The position numbers and the translations under genes are program-made. A stretch of DNA of 44,504 nucleotides, from NCBI RefSeq assembly GCF_015070855.1, contig NZ_JADDIX010000027.1:1-44504 (forward strand), written 5' to 3'. The notes under the pieces are model-generated. The model had not been told where the DNA came from and searched no databases. It saw nothing but the letters and a program-made list of their open reading frames with translations. Source of the stretch: Pseudomonas lopnurensis (GTDB lineage: Bacteria > Pseudomonadota > Gammaproteobacteria > Pseudomonadales > Pseudomonadaceae). The number at the start of each line of letters is the position of its first letter. The stretch's first letter is position 1. Positions 12,022 through 41,034 of the stretch are shown here, in pieces.

Positions 12022-13107
12022 TCACGGGTGGGGAATCAGCGTCTCCACGGCGGTGATCTGCCGGTCCAGGGTGGCGCGGTCGGGGCAGCGCAGCGTCGCG
12101 TGGCCGACCTTGCGTCCGGCCTTGAAGGCCTTGCCGTAGTGGTGCAGGTGACAGTCCTCGATGGCGACTACCCGGGCCACCTCCGGCACCTCGCCGATGA
12201 AGTTGAGCATGGCGCTCTCGCCCAGCTTGGCGGTCGAGCCCAGCGGCAGGCCGGCGACGGCGCGCAGGTGGTTCTCGAACTGGCTGCACTCGGCGCCTTC
12301 GATGGTCCAGTGGCCGGAGTTGTGCACGCGCGGGGCGATCTCGTTGGCCTTCAGGCCGCCGTCCACCTCGAAGAACTCGAAGGCCAGCACGCCGACGTAG
12401 TCCAGGCGCTCCAGCACGCGCCCGACATAGTCCTCGGCCAGCGCCTGCAGCGGGTGGTTGCTGCTGGCCACCGACAGCCGCAGGATGCCGCTCTCGTGGG
12501 TGTTGTGCACCAGCGGGTAGAAGCAGGTTTCGCCGTCGCGGCCGCGCACGGCGATCAGCGAGACCTCGCCGGTGAACGGCACGAAGCCTTCGAGCAGGCA
12601 CGGCACGCTGCCCAGCTCGGCGAAGGCACCGGCGACATCGGCCGGCTTGCGCAGCAGCTTCTGGCCCTTGCCGTCGTAGCCCAGGGTGCGGGTCTTGAGC
12701 ACGGCCGGCAGGCCGATGCTGGCCACCGCGGCGTCGAGATCGGCCTGCGACTGGATGTCGGCGAAGGCCGGGGTGGGGATGCCGAGGTCCCTGAACATCG
12801 ACTTCTCGAACCAGCGGTCGCGGGCGATGCGCAGCGATTCGGCGCTCGGGTAGACCGGCACGAACTGCGAGAGGAAGGCCACGGTCTCGGCCGGCACGCT
12901 CTCGAACTCGAAGGTCACCAGGTCCACCTCGTCGGCCAGCCGGCGCAGGTGGTCCTTGTCGTCGTAGTCGGCGCGGATGTGTTCGCCGAGGGCCTGGGCG
13001 CAGGCGTCCGGCGCCGGGTCGAGGAAGGCGAAGCTCATGCCCAGCGGAGTGCCCGCCAGGGCCAGCATGCGGCCCAGCTGGCCGCCACCGATCACACCAA
13101 TTTTCAT
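12022..13107 (-). CDS. purK: N5-carboxyaminoimidazole ribonucleotide synthase
   Basis: Purine biosynthesis enzyme that uses ATP and bicarbonate to carboxylate AIR to N5-CAIR in the cytoplasm. The 361-residue product shows the N-terminal preATP-grasp motif IGVIGGGQLGRMLALAG, the ATP-grasp core (LKTRTLGYDGKGQ near 140-155; LLEGFVPFTGEVS) and the metal/ATP site FEFFEVDGGLKANEIAPRVH near 260-280, ending in GKxxKxGRKxGH-type residues (KAFKAGRKVGHATL). Length and order are those of PurK. It follows purE with 60 bp between stop and start on the same strand, the standard purEK operon. It is one of three bicarbonate-linked activities in this window, with carbonic anhydrase and pyruvate carboxylase. 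Confidence 0.97.
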   Translation of the reverse strand: MKIGVIGGGQLGRMLALAGTPLGMSFAFLDPAPDACAQALGEHIRADYDDKDHLRRLADEVDLVTFEFESVPAETVAFLSQFVPVYPSAESLRIARDRWFEKSMFRDLGIPTPAFADIQSQADLDAAVASIGLPAVLKTRTLGYDGKGQKLLRKPADVAGAFAELGSVPCLLEGFVPFTGEVSLIAVRGRDGETCFYPLVHNTHESGILRLSVASSNHPLQALAEDYVGRVLERLDYVGVLAFEFFEVDGGLKANEIAPRVHNSGHWTIEGAECSQFENHLRAVAGLPLGSTAKLGESAMLNFIGEVPEVARVVAIEDCHLHHYGKAFKAGRKVGHATLRCPDRATLDRQITAVETLIPHP

Positions 13108-13167: not shown

Positions 13168-13656
13168 TCAGCCGCGCGGGTCCGGGTTGTCCAGCACGGT
13201 CTGGGTCTGCTCGTCGCGGAATGTCTTCAGCGCGGCGTGGTACTCGGGGAATTCATGGCCGAGGATGCTCGCCGACAGCAGTGCCGCGTTGACCGCCCCG
13301 GCCTTGCCGATGGCCAGGGTCGCGACCGGCACGCCAGCGGGCATCTGCACGATCGACAGCAGCGAATCGACGCCGGACAGCATCGACGACTGCACCGGCA
13401 CGCCGAGCACCGGCAGATGGGTCTTGGCCGCACACATGCCCGGCAGATGCGCGGCGCCGCCGGCACCGGCGATGATCACGCGCAACCCGCGGGCTTCGGC
13501 CTGTTCGGCGTACTGGAAGAGCAGGTCCGGGGTGCGGTGGGCGGACACCACCGTCACTTCATGGGGGATGCCCAGTTTTTCCAGCATGTCGGCGGTGTGG
13601 CTGAGGGTGGACCAGTCGGACTTGGAGCCCATGATCACGCCTACCAGTGCGGTCAT
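13168..13656 (-). CDS. purE: N5-CAIR mutase (phosphoribosylaminoimidazole carboxylase catalytic subunit)
   Basis: Converts N5-CAIR to CAIR in de novo purine synthesis. The 162-residue product begins [20 protein letters not shown], with the class I PurE GSxSD phosphate-binding loop, [18 protein letters not shown] with the catalytic His, and [11 protein letters not shown] near 75-85. A longer open frame runs upstream to 13869, but the length of known PurE and a GAGAGG about 8 nt upstream fix the start at 13656. It is the first gene of purEK, upstream of purK on the same strand. The 213 bp upstream show no purine-regulon box that I can call with confidence. Confidence 0.97.
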
Positions 13657-13869
13657 CGTCGTGCCTCTCTTCGGCGCCTGCGGGCGCATCAGGAACAACG
13701 GCCGCGCTGATGCCAGCGCGGCCGTGCAGGAAACATGGCCGGAACCGGTCCGACCGAGGGCCGCGCAGTATAGCGCAAGCCCCGTCCCGCCGGCACCCGC
13801 GACCATGCGTCCGGCAGGACATCGCGTGCGCCCGAAGAGCCGACAACGGTGCTGGAGGCTGAACGACAA

Positions 13870-16543: not shown

Positions 16544-16608
16544 GGCCGGAGCCCTTATGTTAGCGCTCATCGCGGCAGTTGCCGCTTCCTCCCCGGATAA
16601 GAGTCCTC

Positions 16609-18033
<1,425 letters not shown>

Positions 18034-19019: not shown

Positions 19020-20438
<1,419 letters not shown>

Positions 20439-20445
20439 GGCTTTT

Positions 20446-20520
20446 GTAGGAGCCGGCTTGCCGGCGATCCGTCGTGTCGGCCGATCGCCGGCAAGGACTG
20501 GGCGCCCCCCAGGCTCCACA
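20446..20520. repeat. REP inverted pair between symporter and asparaginase
   Basis: Begins GTAGGAGCCGGCTTGCCGGC, continues to GATCGCCGGCAAGGAC and ends CAGGCTCCACA. Two REP units are in head-to-head arrangement, able to fold into a long stem in the transcript between the two genes. It starts 8 bp after the symporter stop. Confidence 0.8.
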
Positions 20521-20562
20521 GGGATCGCATTAGCCCCAACCCGTTTCGTTCGAGGAGACCCC

Positions 20563-21555
20563 ATGCCGGCCTGCAGAAAACTCCTGGTGCTGTACACCGG
20601 CGGCACCATCGGCATGCAGCAGAGCGCCGCCGGGCTAATGCCCGCCTCCGGTTTCGCCGACCGGCTGCGCGCCCAGCAGGGCCTGCAACCCGAGCTGGAC
20701 CTGCCCGACTGGCGGTTCCACGAACTGCTGCCGGCCATCGACAGCGCCAACATGAACCAGCGCAACTGGCTGGCCATGGTCGAGGCCATCCGCAGCGGCG
20801 TCGAAGCGGACGGCTGCGACGCCGTGTTGGTGCTGCATGGTACCGACACCCTGGCCTACAGCGCCGCGGCGCTGAGCTTCCTGCTGCTGGGGCTGGACGT
20901 GCCGGTGCTGCTGACCGGCTCCATGCTGCCGGCCGGCGTGCCGGGCAGCGATGCCTGGGACAACCTGTTCGGCGCCATGCGGGCATTGCGCGACGGTGTG
21001 CCGCCCGGCGTGCACCTGTATTTCCACGGTGCCCTGCTGCATGGCGCGCGCGCCAGCAAGCTGGGCACGGCGACCCTCGACGCCTTCGCCGAACAGCCAC
21101 GCCAGCGCCGCGGCCAGCGGGCAGCGGCGATCCCGCCCGCCATCGACTACCGCGCAGCGCGCCATCCGGTCAGCCTTGCCGTGCTGCCGCTGTTTCCCGG
21201 CGTACAGGCCGCGCAGCTACGGGCACTGCTCGCCAGCGGCGTGCAGGGCCTGGTGCTGGAGTGCTACGGCAGCGGCACCGGGCCGGCGGACAATGCCGAG
21301 CTGCTGGCAGCGCTGCAGGAGGCGCGGGCGCGCGGCGTGGTGCTGGTCGCGATCAGCCAGTGCCCGCAGGGGCACGTCGAGTTCGGCCTGTATGCCGCCG
21401 GCAGCCAGCTGGCCGCCTGCGGCCTGCTGAGCGGCGGCGGGATGACCCGCGAAGCGGCGCTGGGCAAGCTGTTCGCCCTGCTCGGCGCCGGGCTGGCAGC
21501 GGCCGAGGTGGCGCACTGGTTCGCCCTGGACCTGTGCGGCGAGCGCGCGGACTGA
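20563..21555 (+). CDS. ansA: Type I (cytoplasmic) L-asparaginase
   Basis: Hydrolyses L-asparagine to aspartate and ammonia. The 330-residue product has the two asparaginase catalytic triad regions: LYTGGTIGMQ with the nucleophilic Thr12, and LHGTDTLAYSAAALSFLL with Thr94-Asp95 (HGTDT from residue 92). A later GLVLECYGSGTGP matches the substrate-flap side of the active site. There is no signal peptide, so it is cytoplasmic. The start has an ideal GAGGAGACCCC before ATG. It lies downstream of an AGCS symporter and near aspA; together they would take asparagine to fumarate with release of two ammonia. It is convergent with the histidine kinase gene, with a 6-bp gap. Confidence 0.93.
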   Translation: MPACRKLLVLYTGGTIGMQQSAAGLMPASGFADRLRAQQGLQPELDLPDWRFHELLPAIDSANMNQRNWLAMVEAIRSGVEADGCDAVLVLHGTDTLAYSAAALSFLLLGLDVPVLLTGSMLPAGVPGSDAWDNLFGAMRALRDGVPPGVHLYFHGALLHGARASKLGTATLDAFAEQPRQRRGQRAAAIPPAIDYRAARHPVSLAVLPLFPGVQAAQLRALLASGVQGLVLECYGSGTGPADNAELLAALQEARARGVVLVAISQCPQGHVEFGLYAAGSQLAACGLLSGGGMTREAALGKLFALLGAGLAAAEVAHWFALDLCGERAD

Positions 21556-24275: not shown

Positions 24276-25085
24276 ATGGCCAGATCCAGCACAGCCGGAG
24301 CGCTGTTCGCCCTGCTTCTGACGGGCGCCGCCAGCGCCCATGCCGAGCTGCCGAACGACTACCGGATCGTCCTGCAGACCGACAACTTCCCGCCCTTCAA
24401 CATGGCGCCGAACCTGAAGAACTTCGCCCGCGGCGACGAGGTGGAGGGAATCGGCACCGACACGGTGCGGGAAATCTTCAAACGCGCCGGCATCGCCTAC
24501 AGCCTGGCCCTGCGCGGTCCCTGGAACAGGCTCTACGAGCAGACCCGGCAGGAAGCCGATCACGGCCTGTTCTCGGTCGCCCGCACCGAGCACAACGCCG
24601 GGCTGTTCAAGTGGGTCGGCCCGCTGGCGCACTACGACAGCGTACTGCTGGCGCTGCCCGAACGCGGCCTGAAACTGCAGAGCCTGGCCCAGGCCGCGGA
24701 CTACCGGATCGGTGGCTACCGGAACGGCAGCGTGAATCTCTACCTCGAAAGCCAGGGCCTCGAGCCGGGCGACAGCCTCAGCGATCCGGAAAACCTGCGC
24801 AAGCTGCTCGGTGGGCGGATCGACCTCTGGGCCGCCGCCGACCCGGTGTGGCGCTACTACGCGCGCCAGCAAGGGGTGGCGGAGCAGCAGTTGCAGGTGG
24901 TGCTGAGCTTTCGCAGCGAGCCGGTCTACCTGGCGCTGAGCCGCGATACCCCGGACGAAGTCGTCGAACGCCTGCAGCAGGCGCTCGACGCGGTCATCGC
25001 CGAAGGCTACGCCGGCTGCAGCCAGACTCCGGATCTGTGCTACCTGATCCGCGACCGCGGCAAGGCGCTCGCCGGCGGCCGCTGA
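24276..25085 (+). CDS. Periplasmic solute-binding protein, family 3 type
   Basis: Exported binding protein of 269 residues with a signal peptide (MARSSTAGALFALLLTGAAS, cleavage near AHA-23). The mature part starts as a family 3 amino-acid-type binding fold (YRIVLQTDNFPPFNMAPN; GIGTDTVREIFKRAGIAYSL; then a second lobe to VVERLQQALDAVIAEGY). Two cysteines near the C-terminus (CSQTPDLC) could form a disulphide. There is no permease or ATPase gene beside it, so it is an orphan; proteins of this kind in pseudomonads can be sensors' partners or transporters' loose components. It is divergent from the dCache histidine kinase over 218 bp, which supports a sensing role by inference. The start has GAGGAG 9 nt upstream. 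Confidence 0.85.
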   Translation: MARSSTAGALFALLLTGAASAHAELPNDYRIVLQTDNFPPFNMAPNLKNFARGDEVEGIGTDTVREIFKRAGIAYSLALRGPWNRLYEQTRQEADHGLFSVARTEHNAGLFKWVGPLAHYDSVLLALPERGLKLQSLAQAADYRIGGYRNGSVNLYLESQGLEPGDSLSDPENLRKLLGGRIDLWAAADPVWRYYARQQGVAEQQLQVVLSFRSEPVYLALSRDTPDEVVERLQQALDAVIAEGYAGCSQTPDLCYLIRDRGKALAGGR

Positions 25086-25147: not shown

Positions 25148-25849
25148 TCAGCCCTGCAGGTAGCGAGGCTTGGGCGTGGCCATCGGCAGCGGGCCGTCGC
25201 CGATCAGGCGGAACTCGCCCTTTTCGGCGTCGTAGCCGCGGATTTCGCTGGTTTCGATGTCGTACAGCCAGCCGTGGATGAACAGCTGGCCGCTGGCCAG
25301 GCGCGCCGCCACCGAGGGATGGGTGCGCAGGTGGTCGAGCTGGGCCACGACGTTCTCCTGGGTGAGGATGCCCAGGGTGTTGTGGTCGGCACAGCCGCAG
25401 TTCTGCTCGACGACGATCTTCGCCACCTCGGAATGCCGCAGCCAGGCCTTCACCGTCGGCATGCGCTCGAGTTCGTCGGGGTTGAGCACGGCCTTCATCG
25501 CACCGCAGTCCGAATGCCCGCAGACGATGATGTGCTGCACGCCGAGGGCCATCACGGCGAATTCGATGGCCGTGGAAACACCGCCGTTCATCTGCCCGTA
25601 CGGCGGCACCACGTTGCCGACGTTGCGGGTGACGAACAGGTCGCCCGGCGCGCTCTGGGTGATCAGTTCGGGGATGATCCGCGAGTCGGCGCAGGTGATG
25701 AACATCGCACGCGGGGTCTGTTCGTGGGCCAGTTTCTTGAACAGCTCGCGCTGCTGCGGGTAGATTTCCTCGCGAAAGCGCTTGACGCCGCCAACGATCA
25801 GGTCGAGCGCCTCCTGCGCGGTTTCGGTGTTTTTCTGTTGCTCGTTCAT
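25148..25849 (-). CDS. Beta-class carbonic anhydrase
   Basis: Interconverts CO2 and bicarbonate in the cytoplasm. The 233-residue product carries the beta-class zinc ligands Cys53, His112 and Cys115 (ITCADSR; VCGHSDCG) and the Asp55-Arg57 dyad. The sequence NVVPPYGQMNGGVSTAIEFA lies between. It resembles the Can/CynT branch, and no signal peptide is present. It is the third gene of a minus-strand run with a PII-like protein (43 bp upstream) and an SbtA-like bicarbonate transporter, and downstream of pyruvate carboxylase, a bicarbonate user. This suggests it balances imported bicarbonate with CO2 for carboxylation. Which gene symbol applies cannot be decided from sequence alone. Confidence 0.95.
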   Translation of the reverse strand: MNEQQKNTETAQEALDLIVGGVKRFREEIYPQQRELFKKLAHEQTPRAMFITCADSRIIPELITQSAPGDLFVTRNVGNVVPPYGQMNGGVSTAIEFAVMALGVQHIIVCGHSDCGAMKAVLNPDELERMPTVKAWLRHSEVAKIVVEQNCGCADHNTLGILTQENVVAQLDHLRTHPSVAARLASGQLFIHGWLYDIETSEIRGYDAEKGEFRLIGDGPLPMATPKPRYLQG

Positions 25850-25892
25850 GTTCGATCTCGATTGCAGGATGGGGGCCTGGGTGCCCTAGAAG

Positions 25893-26195
25893 CTAGAATT
25901 TTTCCGGCCGCAGCACGTCCACCTCGGCGAGATAGCAGACCATCGCGAAGTGTTCGTAATAGCGTGCCTGCAGATGGGCGGCGATGCGTTCGGCCAGCTC
26001 GCGGCCACAGATCACTTCCAGGCGGATGTTGCCGTCGGTGTTCCATTCGGCGCTGCGCACGCCCCGGCTGCCGCTGCCGCGCGCATCGGACAGGGTCCAG
26101 CCGGGCGCGCCCAGGGTCTGCAGATCACTCACCAGCTTGTGCTCGAGGGCCGCTTCGCAGATCACGGTGAGCAGGGTGCGCTTGTGTGCGTTCAT
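25893..26195 (-). CDS. PII-like signalling protein (SbtB-like)
   Basis: Small trimeric PII-superfamily regulator, 100 residues. It begins MNAHKRTLLTVICEAALEHK, has a T-loop-like stretch ARGSGSRGVRSAEW near 38-51, then NIRLEVICGRELAERIAAHL and a final beta strand. The context is decisive: its ATG follows the stop of the SbtA-like transporter with a single base between, as for sbtA-sbtB pairs. In cyanobacteria SbtB binds adenine nucleotides, including cAMP, and inhibits SbtA (family knowledge). The CGPxGC-type redox C-terminus of some SbtB proteins is absent; this copy ends VLRPEKF. The T-loop is short and lacks the uridylylated Tyr of GlnB. Confidence 0.82.
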   Translation of the reverse strand: MNAHKRTLLTVICEAALEHKLVSDLQTLGAPGWTLSDARGSGSRGVRSAEWNTDGNIRLEVICGRELAERIAAHLQARYYEHFAMVCYLAEVDVLRPEKF

Positions 26196-26196
26196 C

Positions 26197-27138
26197 TCAG
26201 AGTCCCCAGGCGATCAGTTGCTCGGCCATCGCCAGGTAGAGCGGTATGCCGATCAGGATGTTGAACGGAAAGGTGATGCCCAGCGAGGCCGTCAGCGACA
26301 GCGACGGATTGGCCTGCGGCACCGCCAGGCGCATCGCCGCCGGCACCGCGATGTAGGAGGCGCTGGCCGCGAGCGTGGCGAGCATCGCCGTGCCGCCCAG
26401 CGACAGCCCCATGAAACGCGCCAGCATGGCGCCGACCAGCGCGCCGACCAGCGGCATGATCACGGCGAAGGCCGCCAGCTTCAAGCCGTAGCGCTTCAGC
26501 GAACCCAACTGGCCGGAGGCGATCAGGCCCATTTCCAGCAGGAAGAACGCCAGCACCGGCTTGAACATGCTGGTGTACAGGGGCTCCAGCGGCTTGATCG
26601 CCTCCTTGCCGGCGATGGCACCGATCAGCAGGCCGCCGAGCAGCAGCATGATGCTCTTGCCGAGAAAGATCTCGCGGCCCAGCTCCTTCCAGTCGGTGTC
26701 CTGCGATATCCCCTTGGCCAGCAGGATGCCGACCAGAATCGCCGGAATCTCGAGAATCGCCACGAACAGCGGCATATAGCTCTCGAAGAAGATTTCCCGC
26801 GCCGCCAGGTAGGCCACCACCACCGCGAAGGTACCGGCGCTGACCGAGCCATAGTGCGCCGCCACCGCCGCCGCATTGACGCGGTCAAAACGCAGGCCGC
26901 GCAACAGGCCGAAGGCGAGCACGGGCAGCAACACGCCCAGCGCCAGCACCAGCAGCGACTGGCCGAGCAGCGCGGGACTGGCCTGCTCGGCCAGTTCCAC
27001 CCCACCGTGCAACCCGATCGCCAGCAGCAAGACGATGGACAGCGTCTCATAGAGCGCCGGCGGCAGCTTCAGTTCGCTCTTGAGCAAACCGGCGAGCAGG
27101 CCGAAGACAAAGAACAGCACGACCGGGTCGATACCCAT
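26197..27138 (-). CDS. sbtA: Sodium-dependent bicarbonate transporter family permease (SbtA-like)
   Basis: Inner-membrane transporter of 313 residues with about ten hydrophobic helices in two halves, matching the SbtA/DUF897 family. It starts MGIDPVVLFFVFGLLAGLLK and contains HYGSVSAGTFAVVVAYLA, then LEIPAILVGILLAKG in the first half and AASASYIAVPAAMRLAVPQA then FPFNILIGIPLYLAMAEQL in the second. These two SVSAGTF/ASASYIAVPAA regions align with the ion-binding crossover of SbtA, from memory of the family. Start with GGAG 7 nt upstream. First gene of a transporter - PII-like - carbonic anhydrase run; a terminator at 27199-27223 separates it from the pyruvate carboxylase genes upstream, so it probably has its own promoter in the 60 bp between. 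Confidence 0.88.
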   Translation of the reverse strand: MGIDPVVLFFVFGLLAGLLKSELKLPPALYETLSIVLLLAIGLHGGVELAEQASPALLGQSLLVLALGVLLPVLAFGLLRGLRFDRVNAAAVAAHYGSVSAGTFAVVVAYLAAREIFFESYMPLFVAILEIPAILVGILLAKGISQDTDWKELGREIFLGKSIMLLLGGLLIGAIAGKEAIKPLEPLYTSMFKPVLAFFLLEMGLIASGQLGSLKRYGLKLAAFAVIMPLVGALVGAMLARFMGLSLGGTAMLATLAASASYIAVPAAMRLAVPQANPSLSLTASLGITFPFNILIGIPLYLAMAEQLIAWGL

Positions 27139-27198: not shown

Positions 27199-27223
27199 AA
27201 AAAAAGGGAGCCGCACGGCTCCC
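27199..27223 (-). terminator. Rho-independent terminator after the pyruvate carboxylase B gene
   Basis: On the minus strand an 8-bp perfect stem, GGGAGCCG / CGGCTCCC (27206-27213 and 27216-27223) with a 2-base loop, is followed by seven T. It lies 37 bp past the stop of the pycB gene and ends about 60 bp before the sbtA start. It is the clearest intrinsic terminator in the window. Confidence 0.9.
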
Positions 27224-27259: not shown

Positions 27260-29068
27260 TCAGGCCTCGATTTCTATCAAGACTTCTCCCGGGTTCACCC
27301 GGTCACCTTTGGCGACATGAACGGCCTTCACGGTGCCGCCGATCGGCGCCTGAATTTCGGTTTCCATCTTCATCGCCTCGCTGACCAGCACCGCCTGACC
27401 GGCCTTGACCAGGTCACCCTCGCTGACCAGCACCTCGACGACGTTGCCCGGCATGGTGGTGCTGACATCGCCCGGCGCGCTGGCCTGCTTGCGCTTGCTG
27501 CCGGCGCCGCCGACGAAGTCGTTGAGCGGCTCGAACACCACCTCCTCCGGCATGCCGTCGATGGACAGGTAGAAGTGGCGCTTGCCCTCGGCCTTGACGC
27601 CGACGCCGGTGATGTCGACGCGGTAGCTCTCGCCGTGCACGTCGATGACGAACTCGGTCGGCACCCCGCCCTGGGCCGGTACCGCGGTGCCGTCGGGGAT
27701 CGGCAGCAGCACCTCCGGCTGCAGCGTGCCGGCCGCGCGCTCCTCGAGGAACTTGCGGCCGATGTCGGGGAACATGGCGTAGGTCAGCACGTCCTCCTCG
27801 CTCTTGGCCAGGTCGCCGACGTCCTTGCGCAACTTGTCCAGCTCGGGCGGCAGCAGGTCGGCCGGACGGCACTCGATGACGTCCTCGCTGCCGATCGCCT
27901 GCAAGCGCAGACGCTGGTCGACCGCGGCCGGCGCCTTGCCGTAGCGGCCCTGCAGGTAGTACTTCACTTCGGTGGTGATGGTCTTGTAGCGCTCGCCGGC
28001 GAGCACGTTGAAGAACGCCTGGGTGCCGACGATCTGCGAGGTCGGGGTGACCAGCGGCGGGTAGCCGAGGTCCTTGCGCACCTTGGGAATCTCGGCCAGC
28101 ACCTCGTCCATGCGGTGCAGCGCGCCCTGCTCCTTGAGCTGGTTGGCGAGGTTGGAAATCATCCCGCCCGGCACCTGGTTGACCTGCACGCGGGTGTCGA
28201 CGCCAGTGAATTCGCTCTCGAACTGGTGGTACTTCTTGCGCACCGCGTAGAAATACAGGCCGATCTCCTGGATCAGTTGCAGGTCCAGGCCGGTGTCGTA
28301 GGGCGTGTCGCGCAGCGCGGCGACCATCGACTCGGTGCCCGGGTGGCTGGTGCCCCAGGCCATGCTGGAGATGGCGGTATCGATGCGGTCGGCGCCGTTC
28401 TCCACCGCCTTGAGCTGGCACATGCTGGCCACGCCGGCGGTGTCGTGGGAGTGGATCGCCACGTCCAGTTCCGGCAGCGCCGCCTTCAGCGCCCTGACCA
28501 GCTCGCCGGTGGCGTAGGGCGTGAGCAGCCCGGCCATGTCCTTGATGGCGATGGAGTCGATACCCATGGCCGCCATCTGCCGCGCCTGCTCGACGAAGGC
28601 CTCGACGGTATGCACCGGGCTGGTGGTGTAGGCGATGGTGCCCTGGGCGTGCTTGCCGGCCTTCTTCACCGCGCGGATCGCGGTTTCCAGGTTCCGCACG
28701 TCGTTCATCGCGTCGAAGATGCGGAACACGTCGATGCCGTTCTCGGCGGCCTTGGCGACGAATGCCTCGACCACGTCGTCGCTGTAGTGGCGGTAGCCGA
28801 GCAGGTTCTGCCCGCGCAGCAGCATCTGCAGGCGGGTGTTGGGCAGCGCCGCCCTGAGCTGGCGCAGGCGCTCCCAGGGATCCTCCTTGAGGAAGCGCAC
28901 GCAGGCGTCGAAGGTGGCGCCACCCCAGACTTCCAGCGACCAGTAGCCGACGCGATCGAGCTTGTCGCAGATCGGCAGCATGTCTTCGGTGCGCATGCGG
29001 GTCGCCAGCAGCGACTGGTGGGCGTCACGCAGAATGGTGTCGGTGACCGTAATTTTCTTTGTGTTCAT
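27260..29068 (-). CDS. pycB: Pyruvate carboxylase subunit B (carboxyltransferase plus biotin carrier; OadA-like)
   Basis: Transfers the carboxyl group from biotin to pyruvate, giving oxaloacetate, with the biotin carboxylase encoded just upstream. The 602-residue product has the carboxyltransferase TIM barrel (about 5-290; TDTILRDAHQSLLATRMRTE; LEVWGGATFDACVRFL; AIHSHDTAGVASM), a PYC/OADA conserved region (about 300-460) and a C-terminal biotinyl domain with EAMKMETE, biotinylated Lys near 567. The sodium-pumping decarboxylase uses the same alpha subunit, but no membrane beta/gamma genes are present and a biotin carboxylase partner is, so carboxylase is the better call. The start at 29068 has AAGGAGACAGAC before ATG. 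It is followed by a strong terminator. Confidence 0.93.
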   Translation of the reverse strand: MNTKKITVTDTILRDAHQSLLATRMRTEDMLPICDKLDRVGYWSLEVWGGATFDACVRFLKEDPWERLRQLRAALPNTRLQMLLRGQNLLGYRHYSDDVVEAFVAKAAENGIDVFRIFDAMNDVRNLETAIRAVKKAGKHAQGTIAYTTSPVHTVEAFVEQARQMAAMGIDSIAIKDMAGLLTPYATGELVRALKAALPELDVAIHSHDTAGVASMCQLKAVENGADRIDTAISSMAWGTSHPGTESMVAALRDTPYDTGLDLQLIQEIGLYFYAVRKKYHQFESEFTGVDTRVQVNQVPGGMISNLANQLKEQGALHRMDEVLAEIPKVRKDLGYPPLVTPTSQIVGTQAFFNVLAGERYKTITTEVKYYLQGRYGKAPAAVDQRLRLQAIGSEDVIECRPADLLPPELDKLRKDVGDLAKSEEDVLTYAMFPDIGRKFLEERAAGTLQPEVLLPIPDGTAVPAQGGVPTEFVIDVHGESYRVDITGVGVKAEGKRHFYLSIDGMPEEVVFEPLNDFVGGAGSKRKQASAPGDVSTTMPGNVVEVLVSEGDLVKAGQAVLVSEAMKMETEIQAPIGGTVKAVHVAKGDRVNPGEVLIEIEA

Positions 29069-29166: not shown

Positions 29167-30582
29167 TTACAGGCCTGCATGGGCGGCGATGGCGGCGGCG
29201 ATGGCCAGGGCCAGTTCGCCCGGCTTGCGTTTGATCGAGTAGTTCAGCAGTTCCGGATGGTTGTCGACGAAGCTGGTGTTGAACTGGCCGCTGCGGAAAT
29301 CCGGGTTGGCGAGAATCTGCTGGTAGTAGGTGGCAGTGGTCTTCACGCCCTGCACGCGCATGTCGTCCAGTGCGCGCGAGCCACGCGCCAGCGCCTCCTC
29401 CCAGGTCAGCGCCCAGACCACCAGCTTCAGGCACATCGAGTCGTAGTACGGCGGAATGGTGTAGCCGGTGTAGATCGCCGTGTCGGTGCGCACGCCGGGG
29501 CCGCCGGGGGCGTAGTAGCGGGTGATCTTGCCGAAGCAGGGCAGGAAGTTGTTGCGCGGGTCCTCGGCGTTGATGCGAAACTGCAGGGAGAAACCGCGAT
29601 ACTGGATGTCTTCCTGCTTGACCGACAGCGGCAGGCCGGAAGCGATGCGGATCTGCTCGCGGACGATGTCGATGCCGGTGATTTCCTCGGTGATGGTGTG
29701 CTCCACCTGCACACGGGTGTTCATCTCCATGAAGTACACCTGCCCGTCGGCGAGCAGGAATTCCACGGTGCCGGCGTTCTCGTAGCCCACGGCCTTGGCC
29801 GCGCGCACGGCGAGGTCGCCGATGTAGGCGCGCTGCTCGGGCGTCAGCTGCGGGCTCGGGGCGATTTCGATGAGCTTCTGGTTGCGCCGCTGGATCGAGC
29901 AGTCGCGCTCGAACAGATGCACGGTGTTGCCGAAACTGTCGGCCAGCACCTGCGCCTCGATGTGCTTGGGCTCGACGATGCATTTTTCGAGGAAGACCTC
30001 GGCGTTGCCGAAGGCCTTGGTCGCCTCGGAGATCACCCGCGGATAGGCCGATTCCAGCTCCGCCCGCGTGTTGCAGCGGCGGATGCCGCGGCCGCCGCCG
30101 CCGGAGGTGGCCTTGAGCATCACCGGGTAGCCGATGCGCTCGGCCTCGCGCAGGGCCTCGGCGAGGTCGGCGACGTTGCCCTCGGTGCCCGGCGTGACCG
30201 GCACGCCGGCCTTGATCATGCTGCGGCGGGCTTCGGTCTTGTCGCCCATGCGGCGAATCACTTCCGCGCTGGGGCCGACGAACCTGATCCCGCGCTCGGC
30301 GCAGATGTCGGCCAGTTCGGCATTCTCGGAGAGGAAACCGTAGCCGGGATGCAGCGCATCGCAGCCGGTTTCCACGGCCAGGTTGACCAGTTTGCGCGGG
30401 TTCAGATAACCGGCCAGCGGGTCCTCGCCGATGAAGTACGCCTCGTCGGCGCGCTTGACGTGCAGGGCATGGCGGTCGGCCTCGGAAAATACCGCCACCG
30501 AGCGAACGCCCATTTCGGCGCAGGCACGGACGATACGCACCGCAATTTCCCCGCGGTTGGCGATCAGCAGCTTCTTGATCAC
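29167..30582 (-). CDS. pycA: Pyruvate carboxylase subunit A (biotin carboxylase)
   Basis: Carboxylates the biotin carrier of subunit B using ATP and bicarbonate. The 471-residue product starts at GTG 30582 (VIKKLLIANRGEIAVRIVRA), with GAGG upstream. ATP-grasp features are clear: GGGGRGIR near 160-170, EKCIVEPKHIEAQVLADSFG near 195-215, ERDCSIQRRNQKLIEIAPSP, and EMNTRVQVEHTITEEITGID near 285-305. The length equals PA5436 as I recall it, and the gene order A then B with a 98-bp spacer is the same. AccC would be similar but is normally paired with accB, not with an OadA-like gene. A divergent LysR gene lies 242 bp away and shares an AT-rich spacer with a clear dyad. Confidence 0.93.
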   Translation of the reverse strand: MIKKLLIANRGEIAVRIVRACAEMGVRSVAVFSEADRHALHVKRADEAYFIGEDPLAGYLNPRKLVNLAVETGCDALHPGYGFLSENAELADICAERGIRFVGPSAEVIRRMGDKTEARRSMIKAGVPVTPGTEGNVADLAEALREAERIGYPVMLKATSGGGGRGIRRCNTRAELESAYPRVISEATKAFGNAEVFLEKCIVEPKHIEAQVLADSFGNTVHLFERDCSIQRRNQKLIEIAPSPQLTPEQRAYIGDLAVRAAKAVGYENAGTVEFLLADGQVYFMEMNTRVQVEHTITEEITGIDIVREQIRIASGLPLSVKQEDIQYRGFSLQFRINAEDPRNNFLPCFGKITRYYAPGGPGVRTDTAIYTGYTIPPYYDSMCLKLVVWALTWEEALARGSRALDDMRVQGVKTTATYYQQILANPDFRSGQFNTSFVDNHPELLNYSIKRKPGELALAIAAAIAAHAGL

Positions 30583-30824: not shown

Positions 30825-31766
30825 ATGCGAAAATCGCTGATGCGCATGACATTGCGCCAGCTACAGGTGTTCCGTGCGGTCTGCGAGAGCCGCTCCTACA
30901 GCCGCGCCGCGGAAGAAATGGCGCTGACCCAGCCGGCCGTGAGCCTGCAGATCCGCCAGCTGGAAGAGCTGGTCGGCCAGCCGCTGTTCGAATACGTCGG
31001 CAAGAAGCTCTACCTCACCGACGCCGCCGAAGCGCTGCAGCGCGCCAGTACCGACATCTTCGGCCGCCTGGACAGCCTCGACATGCAGCTTTCCGACCTG
31101 CTGGGCTCGCTGCAGGGGCAACTGAACCTGGCGGTGGAATCGAGCGCCAAGTACATCACGCCGCACCTGTTCGCCGCCTTCAGGCGCCTGCACCCGGAAG
31201 TCAGCCTGCAACTGGTGGTGGTCAACCACGCCCAGGCGGTACGCCGCCTGAACCTCAGCCGCGACGACCTGCTGATCATGAGCCAGGTGCCCCAGGACAT
31301 GCCGCTGGATTTCCTGCCCTTCCTCAACAACCCCATCGTCGCGGTGGCGCCACCGGACCATCCACTATGCGCACGTGGCGAGCTGCAACTGCAGGACCTG
31401 AGCCCCTACCCGCTGCTGGTGCGCGAAAGCGGCTCGGGCACTCGCAAGGCCTGCGAGGAATATTGCCACCAGAAACGCGCGCATTTCGCCCAGACCCTGG
31501 AGATCGGCTCGCTGGATGCCCAGCGCGAGGCGGTGATCGCCGGCCTCGGGCTGGCCCTGCTGCCGCGCCATGCGGTGCACCAGGAACTGACACGGGGCCT
31601 GCTGCGCGAATTGCCGGTGGCGGAGCTGCCGCTGTTTCGCAGCTGGTGCGCGGTCAACCTCCGCGGCCGCCGCCTGTCGCCGGTGGCCCAGGCGTTCCTC
31701 GGCTTCATCCGCAGCGAGCGGGAGCTGATCGCCGGGCTGGCCAGACGCTTCGAAGCGGCCGGCTGA
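30825..31766 (+). CDS. LysR-family regulator divergent from pyruvate carboxylase (PycR-like)
   Basis: Predicted activator or repressor, 313 residues. The HTH at about 7-65 reads MTLRQLQVFRAVCESRSYSR then AAEEMALTQPAVSLQIRQLE, with the periplasmic-binding-type effector domain from about 95 (QGQLNLAVESSAKYITPHLF), the CbbR/CysB-like subfamily layout. The start is chosen by GGAGAACAGG before ATG; an upstream in-frame extension to 30753 lacks support. It is divergent from pycA, in the position of PA5437 in P. aeruginosa (from memory), so it probably controls the carboxylase genes. The C-terminus is typical of the family. The following 227 bp contain a palindromic repeat and the convergent cadA gene. 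Confidence 0.9.
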   Translation: MRKSLMRMTLRQLQVFRAVCESRSYSRAAEEMALTQPAVSLQIRQLEELVGQPLFEYVGKKLYLTDAAEALQRASTDIFGRLDSLDMQLSDLLGSLQGQLNLAVESSAKYITPHLFAAFRRLHPEVSLQLVVVNHAQAVRRLNLSRDDLLIMSQVPQDMPLDFLPFLNNPIVAVAPPDHPLCARGELQLQDLSPYPLLVRESGSGTRKACEEYCHQKRAHFAQTLEIGSLDAQREAVIAGLGLALLPRHAVHQELTRGLLRELPVAELPLFRSWCAVNLRGRRLSPVAQAFLGFIRSERELIAGLARRFEAAG

Positions 31767-31993: not shown

Positions 31994-34192
31994 TCAGGCG
32001 CGCAGCAGGCGCAGGCCGTTGAACACCACCAGCAGGCTCACGCCCATGTCGGCGAATACCGCCATCCACATGGTCGCCTGGCCGGTCAGGGCGAAGCCCA
32101 GGAACAGCGCCTTGATCACCAGGGCCAGGGCGATGTTCTGCCGCAGGATGGCAACGGTGGCGCGCGACAGGCGGACGAAGGCGGGAATCTTGCGCAGGTC
32201 GTCGTCCAGCAGCGCCACATCGGCGGTTTCGATAGCGGTGTCGGTGCCGGCGGCGCCCATGGCGAAGCCGATCTCGGCCTTGGCCAGGGCCGGCGCATCG
32301 TTGATGCCGTCGCCGACCATGCCCACCGCCCCCCCTTCGGCCTGCAGGCGCGCGATGGCCTCGAGCTTGTCGGCCGGCAGCAGGTTGCCGAAGGCTTCGT
32401 CGATGCCCACCTGGGCCGCGATGGCCTGCACCGTGTGCGGATTGTCGCCGCTGAGCATGGCGGTCTTCACCCCCAGTTCGTGCAGTTCGGCGATGGCCGC
32501 GCGGCTGGATTCCTTGACCGTGTCGGCCACGGCGAACAGCGCCAGCGGACGCGTCTGGTCGCACAGCACCACCACGCTCTTGCCCTGGCGCTCCAGGCCA
32601 TCCAGGCGCGCTTCCAGCTCGGCGCTGCACAGGCCCAGCTCCTCCACCAGACGGTGATTGCCGAGCTGATAATCCCGCTCCGCCACCCGGCCACGCACGC
32701 CGCGCCCGGCCAGGGCCTGCAGGTTCTCGACCGCCAGCAGCTCGATGCCCTCTTCGCGCGCCCGGCTGGCCAGCGCCTGGGACACCGGATGGTCGGAGCG
32801 CGCCGCCAGGCTGGCAGCCACCGCGCGGAGGGTGCCGTCGGCATCCGCCACCAGTGCCTGGTGGTCGGTCTGACGCGGCTTGCCGTGAGTGAGGGTGCCG
32901 GTCTTGTCCAGTGCCAGGCGGGCCAGGTGCCGGCCGTTTTCCAGATAGACCCCGCCCTTGATCAGGATGCCTTTGCGCGCCGCCGCCGCCAGGCCGCTGA
33001 CGATGGTCACCGGAGTCGAGATCACCAGCGCGCAGGGGCAGGCTACCACCAGCAACACCAGGGCGCGGTAGATCCAGTCGAACCAGGCGCCGCCCATCAG
33101 TAGCGGCGGCAGCACGGCGACGGCCAGGGCGAAGAGCACCACCGCCGGGGTATAGACCTGCGAGAAGCGGTCGACGAAGCGCTGGGTCGGCGCCCGGGAG
33201 CCCTGGGCCTGCTCCACCGCATGGATGATGCGCGCCAGGGTGGTGTCGCCAGCCAGCGCGGTGCTGCGATACTCCAGCTCGCCGGCGCCGTTGAGGGTGC
33301 CGGCGAACAGCGTGTCGCCCGGCCCCTTGTCCAGCGGCAGGCTCTCGCCGGTGATCGGCGCCTGGTCGACCGTGGAGCGGCCGACGAGCACCTCGCCATC
33401 CAGCCCGATGCGCTCGCCGGGACGCACCCGCACCCGTGCGCCCAGCGGTACCTCGGCCAGCGGCAGGGCCCGCCAGCTGCCGTCGGCCTGCAGCACGCTG
33501 GCCTGCTCTGGAGCCAGCTCCAGCAAACCGCGAATGGCATCGCGCGCGCGGTCCAGGGACCTGGCCTCGATCAGCTCGGCGACGGTGAACAGCACCATGA
33601 CCATGGCCGCTTCCGGCCACTGGCCGATCAGCAGCGCGCCGGTCACCGCGATGCTCATCAGCGCGTTGATGTTGAGATTGCGGTTCTTCAGGGCGATCCA
33701 GCCCTTGCGGTAGGTGCCGAACCCGCACAGGCCGATGGCCACCAGCGCCAGGGCGAAGACCGGCCAGCTACCGTCCTGACCGCTGAAATGCACGAGCTCG
33801 GCGCCCAGCGCGGCAGCCCCGGCCAGCGCCAGGGTCCACCAGCGCCGGCGCGATGCGGCGGCAGGCGGCGGCGCGGCACCAGCCAACGTACCCTGGCGCT
33901 CGGCGCTGAAGCCCAGCTCGCCGATGGCGGCCAGGGCCGCCGGCAGCGCATCCGCGGTGTGTTCCAGAGTCAGCACACGGTTGATCAGGTTGAATTCCAG
34001 CGCCTCGATGCCCGGCATGCCGCCGAGCCGGTCGCGGATCAGGCGCTCCTCGGTGGGGCAATCCATCTGCTCGATGCGCAGGCGGGTGCGCTCGGTGGCG
34101 CCACCGGACTTGGCGCGCACGCCGAGCGCGGCCTGCCCATCCTCGTGGCGCCGTTGCGGGTTGGGGTGGTTCTGTCCACAGCACTGACTCAT
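31994..34192 (-). CDS. cadA: Zn/Cd/Pb-exporting P1B-type ATPase
   Basis: Inner-membrane efflux pump for divalent soft metals, 732 residues. The N-terminal heavy-metal-associated domain has the variant motif RIEQMDCPTEE (about 40-50) rather than GMxCxxC. Then come the transmembrane helices, the actuator loop (PITGESLPLDKGPG), the ion-site CPC in VVACPCALVIS near 384, the phosphorylation site LDKTGTLTHGK near 425 and the hinge VGDGINDAPALAKAEIGFAM. CPC with a preceding DCPTEE domain is typical of CadA/ZntA Zn/Cd/Pb pumps. The start at 34192 (MSQCCGQ) has GGAG about 9 nt upstream; a longer in-frame start at 34216 exists. The region upstream carries a MerR-type promoter shared with the divergent cadR. 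Confidence 0.94.
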   Translation of the reverse strand: MSQCCGQNHPNPQRRHEDGQAALGVRAKSGGATERTRLRIEQMDCPTEERLIRDRLGGMPGIEALEFNLINRVLTLEHTADALPAALAAIGELGFSAERQGTLAGAAPPPAAASRRRWWTLALAGAAALGAELVHFSGQDGSWPVFALALVAIGLCGFGTYRKGWIALKNRNLNINALMSIAVTGALLIGQWPEAAMVMVLFTVAELIEARSLDRARDAIRGLLELAPEQASVLQADGSWRALPLAEVPLGARVRVRPGERIGLDGEVLVGRSTVDQAPITGESLPLDKGPGDTLFAGTLNGAGELEYRSTALAGDTTLARIIHAVEQAQGSRAPTQRFVDRFSQVYTPAVVLFALAVAVLPPLLMGGAWFDWIYRALVLLVVACPCALVISTPVTIVSGLAAAARKGILIKGGVYLENGRHLARLALDKTGTLTHGKPRQTDHQALVADADGTLRAVAASLAARSDHPVSQALASRAREEGIELLAVENLQALAGRGVRGRVAERDYQLGNHRLVEELGLCSAELEARLDGLERQGKSVVVLCDQTRPLALFAVADTVKESSRAAIAELHELGVKTAMLSGDNPHTVQAIAAQVGIDEAFGNLLPADKLEAIARLQAEGGAVGMVGDGINDAPALAKAEIGFAMGAAGTDTAIETADVALLDDDLRKIPAFVRLSRATVAILRQNIALALVIKALFLGFALTGQATMWMAVFADMGVSLLVVFNGLRLLRA

Positions 34193-34220
34193 GACATCGA
34201 TCTCCTGCATCCACATTGCG

Positions 34221-38085: not shown

Positions 38086-38694
38086 GGTACAGCCAGGGCA
38101 TTTCCGCGCCATTCGCCGCAGCCCCCGCATAGTGCGAGACAGAGCGGATCGTGCCACTTTCGCTTCGGCTTAGTTCTCGCCACCGAAACGGCCCGATATA
38201 ACTCCCGGGATGATCGGATAATTGTCCTCTGGCAATTTCCGCATACGCTCCGAAATATAGCCGGACGATGGCGCCGTGCCAGGCGCGAATATCCGGCGCT
38301 CGCATCTTAGTTCATCGCCGCGAATATCGCCGGTTATCCACATTCATACTTGAGTCGCTCCGAGCGTATCGACGACGGTCATCAGAGAACCCCATCATCC
38401 GCCGGAAAACCAGTGAATACGCGGCCTGCAGCGCCATGAGCAGCAGACCCCGGCAGACTTTCGTGGCGCGCCGCAATGCCTGCAACTGTCGGCAGCGCAA
38501 CTATCGACAAGATATCGACATCAGCGGCGGTGAAACGACTTGAAATATTCGGCGCAAACTAACTGATAACCGGGCAATTTCATGGATATATACGGAACCT
38601 GGCCGGACGACATATCCGGATGACGGGTTGAGAAAACTTTCCCGATGTGTTTAACCTGAAAAAGGATTCAATCAACAACCCCAAAGGATGTGTT
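38086..38694. other. 609-bp AT-enriched region upstream of the ectoine operon
   Basis: No gene is supported; open frames here lack plausible codon use. Composition is more AT-rich than the surroundings. It contains repeated AATAT(C/A)-CCGG-like motifs (38196, 38254, 38288, 38323, 38543, 38612) and, close to ectA, a promoter-like pair (38628-38655). It probably carries osmotic control of ectABCD-ask. No EctR (MarR-type) gene accompanies the operon. Confidence 0.6.
38628..38655 (+). promoter_or_regulatory. Candidate sigma-70/38 promoter of the ectoine operon
   Basis: A -35 TTGAGA (5 of 6 matches) at 38628-38633 is spaced 16 bp from TTTAAC at 38650-38655. The -10 is weak, so this is only a candidate. 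If real, ectA would be read from the TTG at 38695 with a short leader. Confidence 0.4.
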
Positions 38695-39243
38695 TTGAGT
38701 TTTGCTACCGTAACGCTCCGTCGTCCAACCGACGGCGACGGTCATACCCTTCATCAGCTGGTCGCGCGCAGCCAGCCCCTCGATACCAATTCGGTCTACT
38801 GCAACCTGCTGCAGTGTTCCGATTTCGCCGATACCGCCATCGCCGCCGAAGACGCCCAGGGCCGACTGGTCGGGTTCATCTCGGGCTATCGCCCGCCGTC
38901 GCGGCCGGACACGCTGTTCGTCTGGCAGGTCGCCGTGGATAGTTCGATGCGCGGCCAGGGCCTGGCCCTGCGCATGCTGCTGGCGCTGACCACCCGGGTG
39001 GCCCGCGAGCACGGCGTGCGCTTCATGGAAACCACCATCTCGCCGGACAACGCGGCGTCCCAGGCATTGTTCAGGCGCGCCTTCGCCGAACTCGACGCCG
39101 AATTCGCTACTCGGACGCTGTTCTCCCGCGCCGCGCATTTCGCCGGCCAGCACGAGGACGAGGTGCTCTATCGCGCCGGTCCATTCGACGCCTCCATTCT
39201 GGACGCCTCCCACCTAGAAGAAGAGCTCAAGGAGCATGCATGA
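38695..39243 (+). CDS. ectA: Diaminobutyrate acetyltransferase
   Basis: Acetylates L-2,4-diaminobutyrate to N-gamma-acetyl-diaminobutyrate in ectoine synthesis. The 182-residue GNAT protein has VTLRRPTDGDGHTLHQLVAR at the N-terminus, NSVYCNLLQCSDFADTAIAA, then acetyl-CoA motif A VAVDSSMRGQGLALRMLLAL and motif B ETTISPDNAASQALFRRAFA. The frame opens at a GTG at 38647, but the TTG at 38695 (MSFATVTL) gives the family length and has AAAGGA 7-8 nt upstream; I therefore choose TTG. It overlaps ectB by ATGA at 39240-39243. First gene of ectABC-D-ask. The 38086-38694 region upstream probably holds its promoter. Confidence 0.92.
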   Translation: MSFATVTLRRPTDGDGHTLHQLVARSQPLDTNSVYCNLLQCSDFADTAIAAEDAQGRLVGFISGYRPPSRPDTLFVWQVAVDSSMRGQGLALRMLLALTTRVAREHGVRFMETTISPDNAASQALFRRAFAELDAEFATRTLFSRAAHFAGQHEDEVLYRAGPFDASILDASHLEEELKEHA

Positions 39244-40517
39244 AAACGTTTGAACTCAACGAATCCAAGGTTCGCAGCTACTGCCGTTCTTTCCCCGTGG
39301 TGTTCAAGCAGGCGCGCGGCGCCGAGCTGGTCACCCGCGAGGGCAAGCGCTACATCGATTTCCTCGCCGGTGCCGGCACCCTCAACTACGGGCACAACCA
39401 TCCGCTGCTCAAGCAGGCGCTGCTCGACTATATCGAGCAGGATGGCATCACCCACGGTCTGGACATGTACACCGAGGCCAAGGAGCGCTTCCTCGACACC
39501 TTCAACCGGCTGATCCTCGAACCGCGCGGCATGGGCGACTACCGCATGCAGTTCACCGGCCCGACCGGCACCAACGCGGTCGAGGCGGCGATGAAGCTGG
39601 CGCGCAAGGTCACCGGACGCAACAACATCATCAGCTTCACCAATGGCTTCCACGGCTGCAGCATCGGCGCGCTCGCGGCGACCGGCAACCAGCATCACCG
39701 TGGCGGCTCCGGCATCAGCCTCACCGATGTCAGCCGCATGCCCTACGCCAATTATTTCGGCGACAAGACCAACACCATCGGCATGATGGACAAGCTGCTC
39801 ACCGATCCCTCCAGCGGCATCGACAAGCCGGCGGCGGTGATCGTCGAGGTGGTGCAGGGCGAAGGCGGCCTGAACGCCGCCTCGGCCGAATGGATGCGCA
39901 AGCTGGACAAGCTCTGCCGCAAGCACGACATGCTACTGATCGTCGACGATATCCAGGCCGGCTGCGGTCGCACCGGCAGCTTCTTCAGCTTCGAGGAAAT
40001 GGGCATCCAGCCGGACATCGTCACGCTGTCCAAGTCGCTGTCCGGCTACGGCCTGCCGTTCGCCATGGTGCTGCTGCGCCAGGAACTGGACCAGTGGAAG
40101 CCGGGCGAGCACAACGGCACCTTCCGCGGCAACAACCATGCCTTCGTCACCGCCGCCGCGGCCATCGAACACTTCTGGCAGGACGACCGCTTCGCCCAGA
40201 GCGTGCGCGCCAAGGGCAAGCGCATCGCCGACGGCATGCAGCGCATCGTCCGCCGTCACGGCCCGGATTCGCTGTTCGTCAAGGGCCGCGGCATGATGCT
40301 CGGCATCAGTTGCCCGGACGGCGAGATCGCCGCAGCGGTGTGCCGCCATGCCTTCGACAACGGCCTGGTCATCGAGACCAGCGGCGCCCACAGCGAAGTG
40401 GTCAAGTGCCTCTGCCCGCTGGTCATCAGCGACGAGCAGATCGACCAGGCGCTGAACATTCTCGACAAGGCCTTCGCCGCCGTGATGGGCGAGCAGGCCG
40501 CCGACCAAGCATCTTGA
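39240..40517 (+). CDS. ectB: Diaminobutyrate-2-oxoglutarate transaminase
   Basis: PLP-dependent aminotransferase making L-2,4-diaminobutyrate from aspartate semialdehyde and glutamate. The 425-residue product is a class III aminotransferase: [20 protein letters not shown] near 40-60, [20 protein letters not shown] near 110-130, [35 protein letters not shown] near 230-245, and the PLP-binding Lys265 in [15 protein letters not shown]. Length and sequence agree with EctB. The start overlaps the ectA stop in ATGA, implying coupling, and the stop is 10 bp before ectC. It uses the aspartate semialdehyde made after the dedicated aspartokinase further down the same run. Confidence 0.97.
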
Positions 40518-40527
40518 GGTAACCGCA

Positions 40528-40932
40528 ATGATCGTACGTACCCTCGCCGAGTGCGAGCAGACCGACCGCAAGGTCCACAGCAAGACTGGCACCTGGGACA
40601 GCACGCGCATGCTGCTCAAGGACGACAAGGTGGGCTTCTCGTTCCACATCACCACCATCTACGCCGGCAGCGAGACGCACATCCACTACCAGAACCACTT
40701 CGAGTCGGTGTACTGCATCAGCGGCAATGGCGAGATCGAGACCCTCGCCGACGGCAAGATCTACAAGATCGAGCCCGGCACGCTGTACGTGCTGGACAAG
40801 CACGACGAGCACCTGCTGCGCGGCGGCAGCGAGGACATGAAGCTGGCCTGCGTGTTCAATCCGCCGCTCAACGGCAATGAAGTGCACGACGAAAGCGGGG
40901 TCTATCCGCTGGAGGCGGAGGCGATCGCATAG
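40528..40932 (+). CDS. ectC: L-ectoine synthase
   Basis: Cyclises N-gamma-acetyl-diaminobutyrate to ectoine. The 134-residue cupin begins [20 protein letters not shown], with [20 protein letters not shown], the cupin metal-site region [20 protein letters not shown] (about 51-70) and [15 protein letters not shown] near 90-105, as in EctC. Length is typical (128-137 residues). The gene follows ectB by 10 bp with GAGGT a few bases before the ATG. Repeats follow its stop and separate it from ectD by 179 bp. Position and sequence leave little doubt of function. Confidence 0.97.
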
Positions 40933-41034
40933 GGCGGGTTTAAACCCGCCGACCAGGGTGTCGGCCAAACCCATGCCTGGCGGGTTGCACCCGCCCTACA
41001 ACTGTAGGTTGGGTTGAGCGAAGCGAAGCCCAAC
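40932..41034. repeat. Palindromic repeats inside the ectoine operon (ectC-ectD spacer)
   Basis: A REP-like pair (GGGCGGGTTTAAACCCGCC and CTGGCGGGTTGCACCCGCCC) is followed at 41004 by a shortened GTAGGTTGGG-type copy ending CGAAGCCCAAC. The stems could protect ectABC mRNA from decay or reduce read-through to ectD. Confidence 0.75.

Follow-up and report, generated by a model that had tools for sequence, protein, structure and literature searches.

A likely gene cluster for bicarbonate supply and use in Pseudomonadaceae, pairing an SbtA-family transporter and a PII-like protein with pyruvate carboxylase and PurE-PurK

The stretch of DNA analyzed here (the window, 44,504 nucleotides of Pseudomonas lopnurensis, contig NZ_JADDIX010000027.1) carries on its minus strand a gene of the sbtA family (26197..27138, 313 amino acids), whose product is predicted to be a Na+/bicarbonate symporter, and, after a single base (26196, as given by the open frames and the sequence), a PII-like or SbtB-like gene (25893..26195, 100 amino acids), followed by the gene of a beta-carbonic anhydrase (CA; 25148..25849). 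The genes of a two-subunit pyruvate carboxylase, pycB (27260..29068) and pycA (29167..30582), lie upstream on the same strand, and purE (13168..13657) and purK (12022..13107), which encode the N5-CAIR mutase and the N5-CAIR synthase, are also on this strand, 11.5 kb beyond the CA gene. A preliminary description of the window, which proposed that the sbtA, PII-like and CA genes supply bicarbonate for anaplerosis, was right about the coordinates and names of these genes and of pycAB, and overlooked purE-purK. It is likely, in our judgment, that these genes belong to a cluster that pairs bicarbonate supply with its use, in which SbtA would import bicarbonate, the PII-like protein would gate the import, and pyruvate carboxylase and PurE-PurK would fix the bicarbonate. 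With somewhat less confidence, we favor the idea that this is a dedicated bicarbonate-assimilation cluster of heterotrophic Pseudomonadaceae, in which pyruvate carboxylase and PurE-PurK flank a slot where CA and an SbtA that is driven by Na+ and gated by the PII-like protein replace one another or occur together.

The family was surveyed in 129 genomes (G-numbers designate surveyed genomes and L-numbers loci; the surveyed genomes and the named sets overlap, and their counts are not additive), and SbtA was found in 31 of them, PycA in 111 and PurK in 126. PycA is encoded on the same strand as SbtA, at 4 kb or less, in 25 of the 31 genomes. PycA and PurK lie within 100 kb of each other in 85 of the 110 genomes that have both, 77 of these 85 on one strand; the remaining genomes have them farther apart (7) or on different contigs (18). 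In Halopseudomonas and its kin all these genes are gathered in one tight cluster with the order LysR, pycA-pycB, slot, purE-purK. The complete order LysR, pycA-pycB-sbtA-PII-purE-purK is present in Halopseudomonas pelagia (L081; very likely the same genome as G708, given an identical purE), L079 and L254; pycB and sbtA are 32 bp apart in L254, and the search for a terminator between these two genes was negative in all three clusters. When the tight cluster is defined by a pycA-purK gap of less than 6 kb, it occurs in 17 genomes, and its slot was read in 16 (L254, L255 and L258-L271; G696 was left out); for L258-L264, L266, L267 and L271 the piece read starts after pycB, and pycB was deduced from the distance to pycA.

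The slot holds CA alone in eight clusters (G742, G690, G681, G701, G759, G658, G754, G722), sbtA-PII alone in four (G671, G729, G708, G715), both, as CA-sbtA-PII, in two (G736, G748), and neither in two: in G695 pycB is directly beside purE, and in G662 there is an open reading frame (ORF) that resembles a response regulator with an HD domain, a reading of the translation alone. The CAs of the slot are 73-77% identical to the CA of the window, with a range of 74-77% in the eight CA-only clusters. Five of the CA-only genomes have SbtA elsewhere, and the one that was read (L256) is 42% identical to the SbtA of the window; the sbtA of G759 has internal stops and was left out. The place between two enzyme systems that use bicarbonate is thus common to CA and the pump, and this sharing of the slot is the best evidence here that the cargo of the pump is bicarbonate. 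The order of the two suppliers in the window, sbtA-PII-CA, differs from that in G736 and G748, so these pairings may have arisen separately; the changes counted on a purE tree, 4 for CA and 3 for SbtA, are rough, the tree being short and poorly resolved.

Outside the family, the linkage was followed in 293 genomes of the order Pseudomonadales, 88 with SbtA over the cut-off and 67 with the PycA type of the window. Eighty of the 88 loci were compared, leaving out the window's own, G001 (borderline) and G053, G059, G117, G138, G164 and G208 (partial or weaker). The neighbors of sbtA in these loci are a divergent LysR gene (32), purEK (30), a PII-like gene (24), pycAB (3) and CA (2). The 30 purEK-linked loci span 17 family codes (one, L083, has two intervening ORFs), with the arrangements sbtA-PII-purE-purK, purE-purK-sbtA-PII, purK-purE-sbtA-PII, and a LysR gene ahead of sbtA-purE-purK; family models confirmed one PurE and one PurK protein, and the assignments in the other loci rest on similarity to these two. 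As purEK is part of the cluster and is more often a neighbor of sbtA than pycAB is (30 against 3 of the 80), pyruvate carboxylase is likely not the sole beneficiary. The idea of bicarbonate supply to carboxylation is favored by the shared slot. RuBisCO was found in five of the 80 order genomes with SbtA, and in none of the 33 that are purEK- or pyc-linked.

A sample of the phylum gave 67 genomes over the cut-off, from which 60 loci of 57 genomes were compared; apart from G580 and G612 they come from outside the order. The ten genomes left out are the window's own and nine already in the order set; second copies in seven genomes and the fragments in G645 were also left out, and the broken sbtA of L253 was represented by one open piece. 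The neighbors in the 60 loci are a PII-like gene (33), CA (17), LysR (11) or none of them (15); pyc is a neighbor in two, both belonging to the family of the window. When 110 neighbor proteins, one for each cluster of immediate neighbors, were scanned with Pfam, no further frequent partner was seen among the 25 families listed first out of 164, counted over all proteins together. In a second kind of SbtA locus the PII-like gene is absent and there is a divergent LysR gene related to the one on the pycA side (L103, L117, L151 and 40 others); these LysR-linked proteins make up 43 of the 147 rows of the SbtA tree, and none is also labelled PII. At L116, a biotin-carboxylase gene whose product is 47% identical to PycA is located about 5.1 kb downstream of a LysR-linked sbtA.

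In a quick tree of SbtA, with 42 of its 143 inner branches weak and with hand-set labels for the window and for six named rows (the purEK of L079 and L081 is not carried), the window falls in a starred set of 17 that includes pyc-linked pseudomonads, L079, L081, five purEK-linked loci (SbtA identity 76-79%) and L127 (75%). The pyc-linked SbtA of L121, from another family, groups with LysR-linked SbtA in a clade far from that of the window, and a single clade for the 12 pyc-linked rows was rejected (AU test, p 7e-62). In the preliminary description, co-occurrence limited to close relatives was to count against the proposal; the distant SbtA of L121 beside pycAB carries the linkage past that limit, in one genome. 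A search around G006 for this second pyc-linked lineage gave two genomes, of which one has sbtA, so the lineage rests on one genome. Over the whole tree the labels change 3 times for pyc, 11 times for purEK and 11 times for CA. These figures bear on the view that the arrangement is an inherited gene neighborhood without function, where CA and sbtA-PII landed by chance in a permissive spot. The region is old, as judged from the persistence of pycA-purK proximity (100 kb or less) in 60 of the 79 sbtA-less genomes with both genes, and the slot of G662 has received another kind of ORF; nevertheless, 14 of the 16 slots hold CA and/or sbtA-PII, and distant SbtA clades have reached purEK or pycAB, for which reason we consider chance inheritance very improbable.

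Among the close kin of the window, the sequences indicate that the neighborhood is firm and CA optional. The named loci retrieved with the SbtA of the window (the best 80 of 98, 78-96% identical and, from the way they were chosen, necessarily close relatives; the nearest are Stutzerimonas) have, within the available flank, the PII-like gene in 80 of 80, PycB in 78 and LysR in 75. PycB is missing from L007, whose sequence starts 135 bp ahead of sbtA, and from the metagenome bin L031, which has no pyc within 8 kb. The link with pyruvate carboxylase advanced in the preliminary description is therefore real, being conserved in named Pseudomonas, Stutzerimonas and Halopseudomonas loci, and of the three-gene module that it described the sbtA-PII pair stands, while CA, with a match in 32 loci (in 20 of them on the same strand, in 12 on the other), does not belong to the core: the other 48 have no CA match in the flank, some flanks being short. 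In L003 a glutaminase gene (9143-10219, plus strand; PF04960), not there in the window, sits between the PII-like gene and CA, and elsewhere in Stutzerimonas several loci have about 1 kb between these two genes. The assembly of Stutzerimonas chloritidismutans AW-1 has sbtA on two contigs (L007 and L010), each of which ends close to sbtA or to the PII-like gene, a pattern suggestive of a break in the assembly or of a duplication. An ORF of 269 amino acids without a Pfam match (24276-25085, plus strand), conserved in some Stutzerimonas, is convergent with the CA gene of the window.

The gap between pycB and sbtA contains in the window a terminator-like hairpin followed by a T-run (27206..27223, minus strand). 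A hairpin after pycB is present in 60 of the 78 named loci with PycB, versus 1 of 312 segments from inside pycB, an imperfect control as these are coding sequence. Within 6.2 kb of the window the scan gave four terminator-like hairpins against 3.5 expected, so the weight of this one rests on its conservation; a promoter scan found none (0.6 expected). Because of the hairpin, sbtA-PII-CA is probably transcribed apart from pycAB in the window, where a single pycAB-sbtA-PII-CA operon is not favored, and pycAB and sbtA-PII probably form separate transcripts in its kin as well.

The SbtA of the window matches PF05982 along its full length (5e-112, residues 5-305 of 313) and has the SbtA fold. Na+ is contacted by backbone oxygens; of the residues at its site, G111, A320 and S322 are identical to those of Synechocystis SbtA, F110 is changed to Y and A112 to S; among the HCO3- contacts, S114 and S324 are kept. 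Several facts have to be set against the proposed role. Y140 and S327, the other two HCO3- contacts, are V and A in the window, and D325 beside them is Y, so the cyanobacterial combination of S114, Y140, S324 and S327 is replaced by S, V, S, A, and the protein is not assigned to the cyanobacterial type; two of these four residues are altered in 142 of the 147 SbtA proteins compared. In two reports, the SbtA-like protein of the heterotroph Labrenzia was inactive in Escherichia coli, with no HCO3- uptake and with growth complemented only by cyanobacterial SbtA (PMC4275256), and the Shewanella relative SO_3758, in which a point mutation gave formate tolerance, was interpreted as a possible exporter, the models of the authors being more consistent with efflux (PMC12093963). 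An importer working beside a cytosolic CA is expected to leak carbon (PMC10880623). The genomic linkage has its exceptions too: pycA is not next to sbtA in six of the 31 cases in the family, 17 of the 80 order loci have no purEK, pycAB, PII-like or LysR gene in the label windows (16 have nothing and one has CA alone), and none of the 60 phylum-sample loci has a purEK neighbor, by which a universal PurEK linkage is rejected. Finally, the terminator-like hairpin argues against co-transcription of pycAB with sbtA.

The pocket and the two reports would suit a different function, in which this SbtA subfamily carries another small anion, formate for example, or exports bicarbonate, and the proximity of the carboxylases reflects disposal or exchange. 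Considering five pocket positions, the cyanobacterial SYSDS occurs in only 5 of the 147 proteins, SxSYA in 136 (SVSYA in the window), and 6 are one change off SxSYA. Against another cargo or direction, CA, PurK and PycA, as neighbors and slot partner, have HCO3-/CO2 chemistry in common, and both the three identical Na+-site residues and the two HCO3- serines are retained, so this function seems to us unlikely. The shared slot answers the objections drawn from Labrenzia and SO_3758 by context only. The SYSDS pocket is kept in L159, L160, L161, L251 and L253, the starred clade farthest from the window, and four of these five genes adjoin a PII-like gene.

The PII-like protein is assigned to the SbtB-like group by its P-II domain (PF00543, 8e-22), by its relatives in the PDB (TTHA0516 and cyanobacterial SbtB, with SbtB chains among the structure matches) and by the position of its gene beside sbtA. 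The C-terminal CGPxGC redox hairpin of SbtB was found in none of the 137 PII-like proteins compared, the window's included; this hairpin is conserved in some SbtB homologs, and hence is not defining (PMC8352866). Its lack limits the function of the protein, not its family membership. The T-loop is four to five residues shorter than that of cyanobacterial SbtB. Control of the import by energy or cAMP state, as put forward in the preliminary description, is hypothetical for this protein.

HCO3- is the substrate of both PurK and pyruvate carboxylase (PMC10880623), and a CA-deficient E. coli is short of HCO3- for anaplerosis, its growth in air being restored by cyanobacterial SbtA (PMC4275256). 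In the mechanism that we propose, SbtA would import HCO3- together with Na+; CA would hydrate CO2 to bicarbonate when CO2 is ample, and SbtA would take over the supply under CO2 scarcity or in an alkaline medium. The bicarbonate would then be fixed by pyruvate carboxylase, yielding oxaloacetate, and by PurE-PurK, leading to purines. The PII-like protein would plug SbtA by its T-loop, as Synechocystis SbtB does, which would also limit back-leak; two suppliers that act under different CO2 or pH could provide an answer to the leak objection. Since no RuBisCO was found and the pump is placed between bicarbonate-using enzymes, it likely feeds ordinary growth metabolism and not photosynthesis.

By analogy with Halomonas elongata, where ectoine synthesis relies on Na+-linked pyruvate carboxylation and on PEP carboxylase (PMC5231179), it is plausible that Na+-driven bicarbonate entry beside pyruvate carboxylase serves ectoine synthesis, ectoine-type genes being present in the genome. 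The window carries at 38647-43611 (plus strand) genes for an acetyltransferase, a class-III aminotransferase and an ACT-domain amino-acid kinase, which resemble the order ectA-ectB-...-aspartokinase of an ectoine-type cluster. Such genes suggest a salt-tolerant host and agree with the notion that Na+/bicarbonate symport and CA serve to balance pH and Na+ where the water is saline or alkaline, the carboxylases being adjacent for other reasons; also in line with it, SbtA has been reported absent from autotrophs with a pH optimum below 4.3 (PMC10880623). This notion does not, however, predict that purEK, pycAB and CA should be linked to sbtA repeatedly and in part independently, and we hold it to be quite unlikely.

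The names of the enzymes rest on the following matches. PycA, the biotin carboxylase subunit, is above the NCBIfam cut-off for PRK07178 (NF005525, 980.5 bits against 768), and PycB, the carboxyltransferase-biotin carrier subunit (602 amino acids from the ATG of MNTKKITV; HMGL-like, PYC_OADA and Biotin_lipoyl domains in Pfam), is above that for PRK09282 (NF006761, 940 against 402). PycB also exceeds the cut-off of the oadA model TIGR01108 (855 bits against 756.5), so the name pyruvate carboxylase rests on the adjacent PycA; the biotin carboxylase and carboxyltransferase-carrier subunits side by side are those of a two-subunit pyruvate carboxylase. CA has the Pro_CA domain of beta-carbonic anhydrases (PF00484, 4.6e-49), and its nearest solved relative is 5swc (9.5e-58), which we take to be the carboxysomal CA CcaA of Synechocystis, the database entry itself reading only carbonic anhydrase. 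PurE matches PF00731 (1.3e-61), and PurK, which uses ATP and HCO3-, matches PF02222, PF22660, PF17769 and TIGR01161 (365 bits). Divergent from pycA there is a LysR-type regulator (30825..31766, open frame from 30753, plus strand; PF00126/PF03466) whose best NCBIfam match is CbbR, at 209 bits under a cut-off of 450. A heavy-metal P-type ATPase gene (31994-34216, minus strand) adjoins it, and L006 has one too. The interval between purEK and CA contains, among others, genes for a sensor kinase, an asparaginase, a symporter of the sodium:alanine type and an aspartase-like lyase; the aspartase-like lyase and asparaginase genes (16579-18033 and 20368-21555, plus strand) place aspartate metabolism within it.

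The genome (4.9 Mb, 99.99% complete) has a single PF05982 gene, two beta-CA genes and one PEP carboxylase. No match to the RuBisCO large subunit (PF00016) was obtained in it up to an E value of 10, other fixation pathways not having been searched, so the description of the host as a heterotroph is supported that far only, and the RuBisCO of a carbon-concentrating mechanism was not found.

SbtA is known in heterotrophs, as the genes of this toolkit are widespread in autotrophs and heterotrophs (PMC10880623), and the same report contains both SbtA and purK, treated separately in the excerpt consulted. Bicarbonate supply in heterotrophs is already known; here it would be linked to anaplerosis and purine synthesis. 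Among the matches listed (titles and starts of abstracts), none deals with sbtA next to pyc or purEK, which is weak evidence given that few subscription papers were covered. SbtA-SbtB has been studied as a photosynthetic system, yet 75 of the 80 SbtA-bearing Pseudomonadales genomes have no RuBisCO match. If our interpretation is true, evolution has carried out in nature the rescue of CA-less cells by SbtA that is known from the laboratory, and PII-type signalling controls the entry of carbon into anaplerosis and purine synthesis instead of photosynthesis. It may also explain the sbtA genes of marine or saline heterotrophs, where CO2 is scarce and bicarbonate and Na+ are plentiful. The shared slot makes the role of SbtA testable in terms of its cargo, its direction and the pathways that are starved without the pump, and offers a simple system in which anaplerosis may be coupled to carbon supply through a PII-like protein.

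The two-subunit pyruvate carboxylase locus of Pseudomonas with a divergent LysR gene is a known arrangement; the window has the same order of LysR and pycA-pycB, and differs in its additional sbtA-PII-CA block and the linked purEK. The MpsAB system of Staphylococcus aureus is a two-gene complex unrelated to SbtA. It resembles the proposed function in that uptake of bicarbonate or dissolved inorganic carbon by a heterotroph has been proposed to feed pyruvate carboxylase and other carboxylases, and in that it is exchangeable with CA in complementation; in contrast, the excerpt describes no PII-like partner or carboxylase cluster (PMC6689103). The Sbt-like SO_3758 of Shewanella oneidensis is also from a heterotroph and has the same type of pocket (S268-A269-S270-Y271-I272-A273); it differs in having been studied for formate tolerance, with substrate and direction unsettled (PMC12093963). 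Cyanobacterial SbtA-SbtB (slr1512-slr1513), part of the carbon-concentrating mechanism, shares with the window the transporter fold, the adjacent PII-like gene and a beta-CA related to 5swc. The window departs from it in the pocket, in a PII-like protein with a shorter T-loop and without the CGPxGC hairpin, and in a genome where no RuBisCO was found and where the neighbors are pyruvate carboxylase and PurEK.

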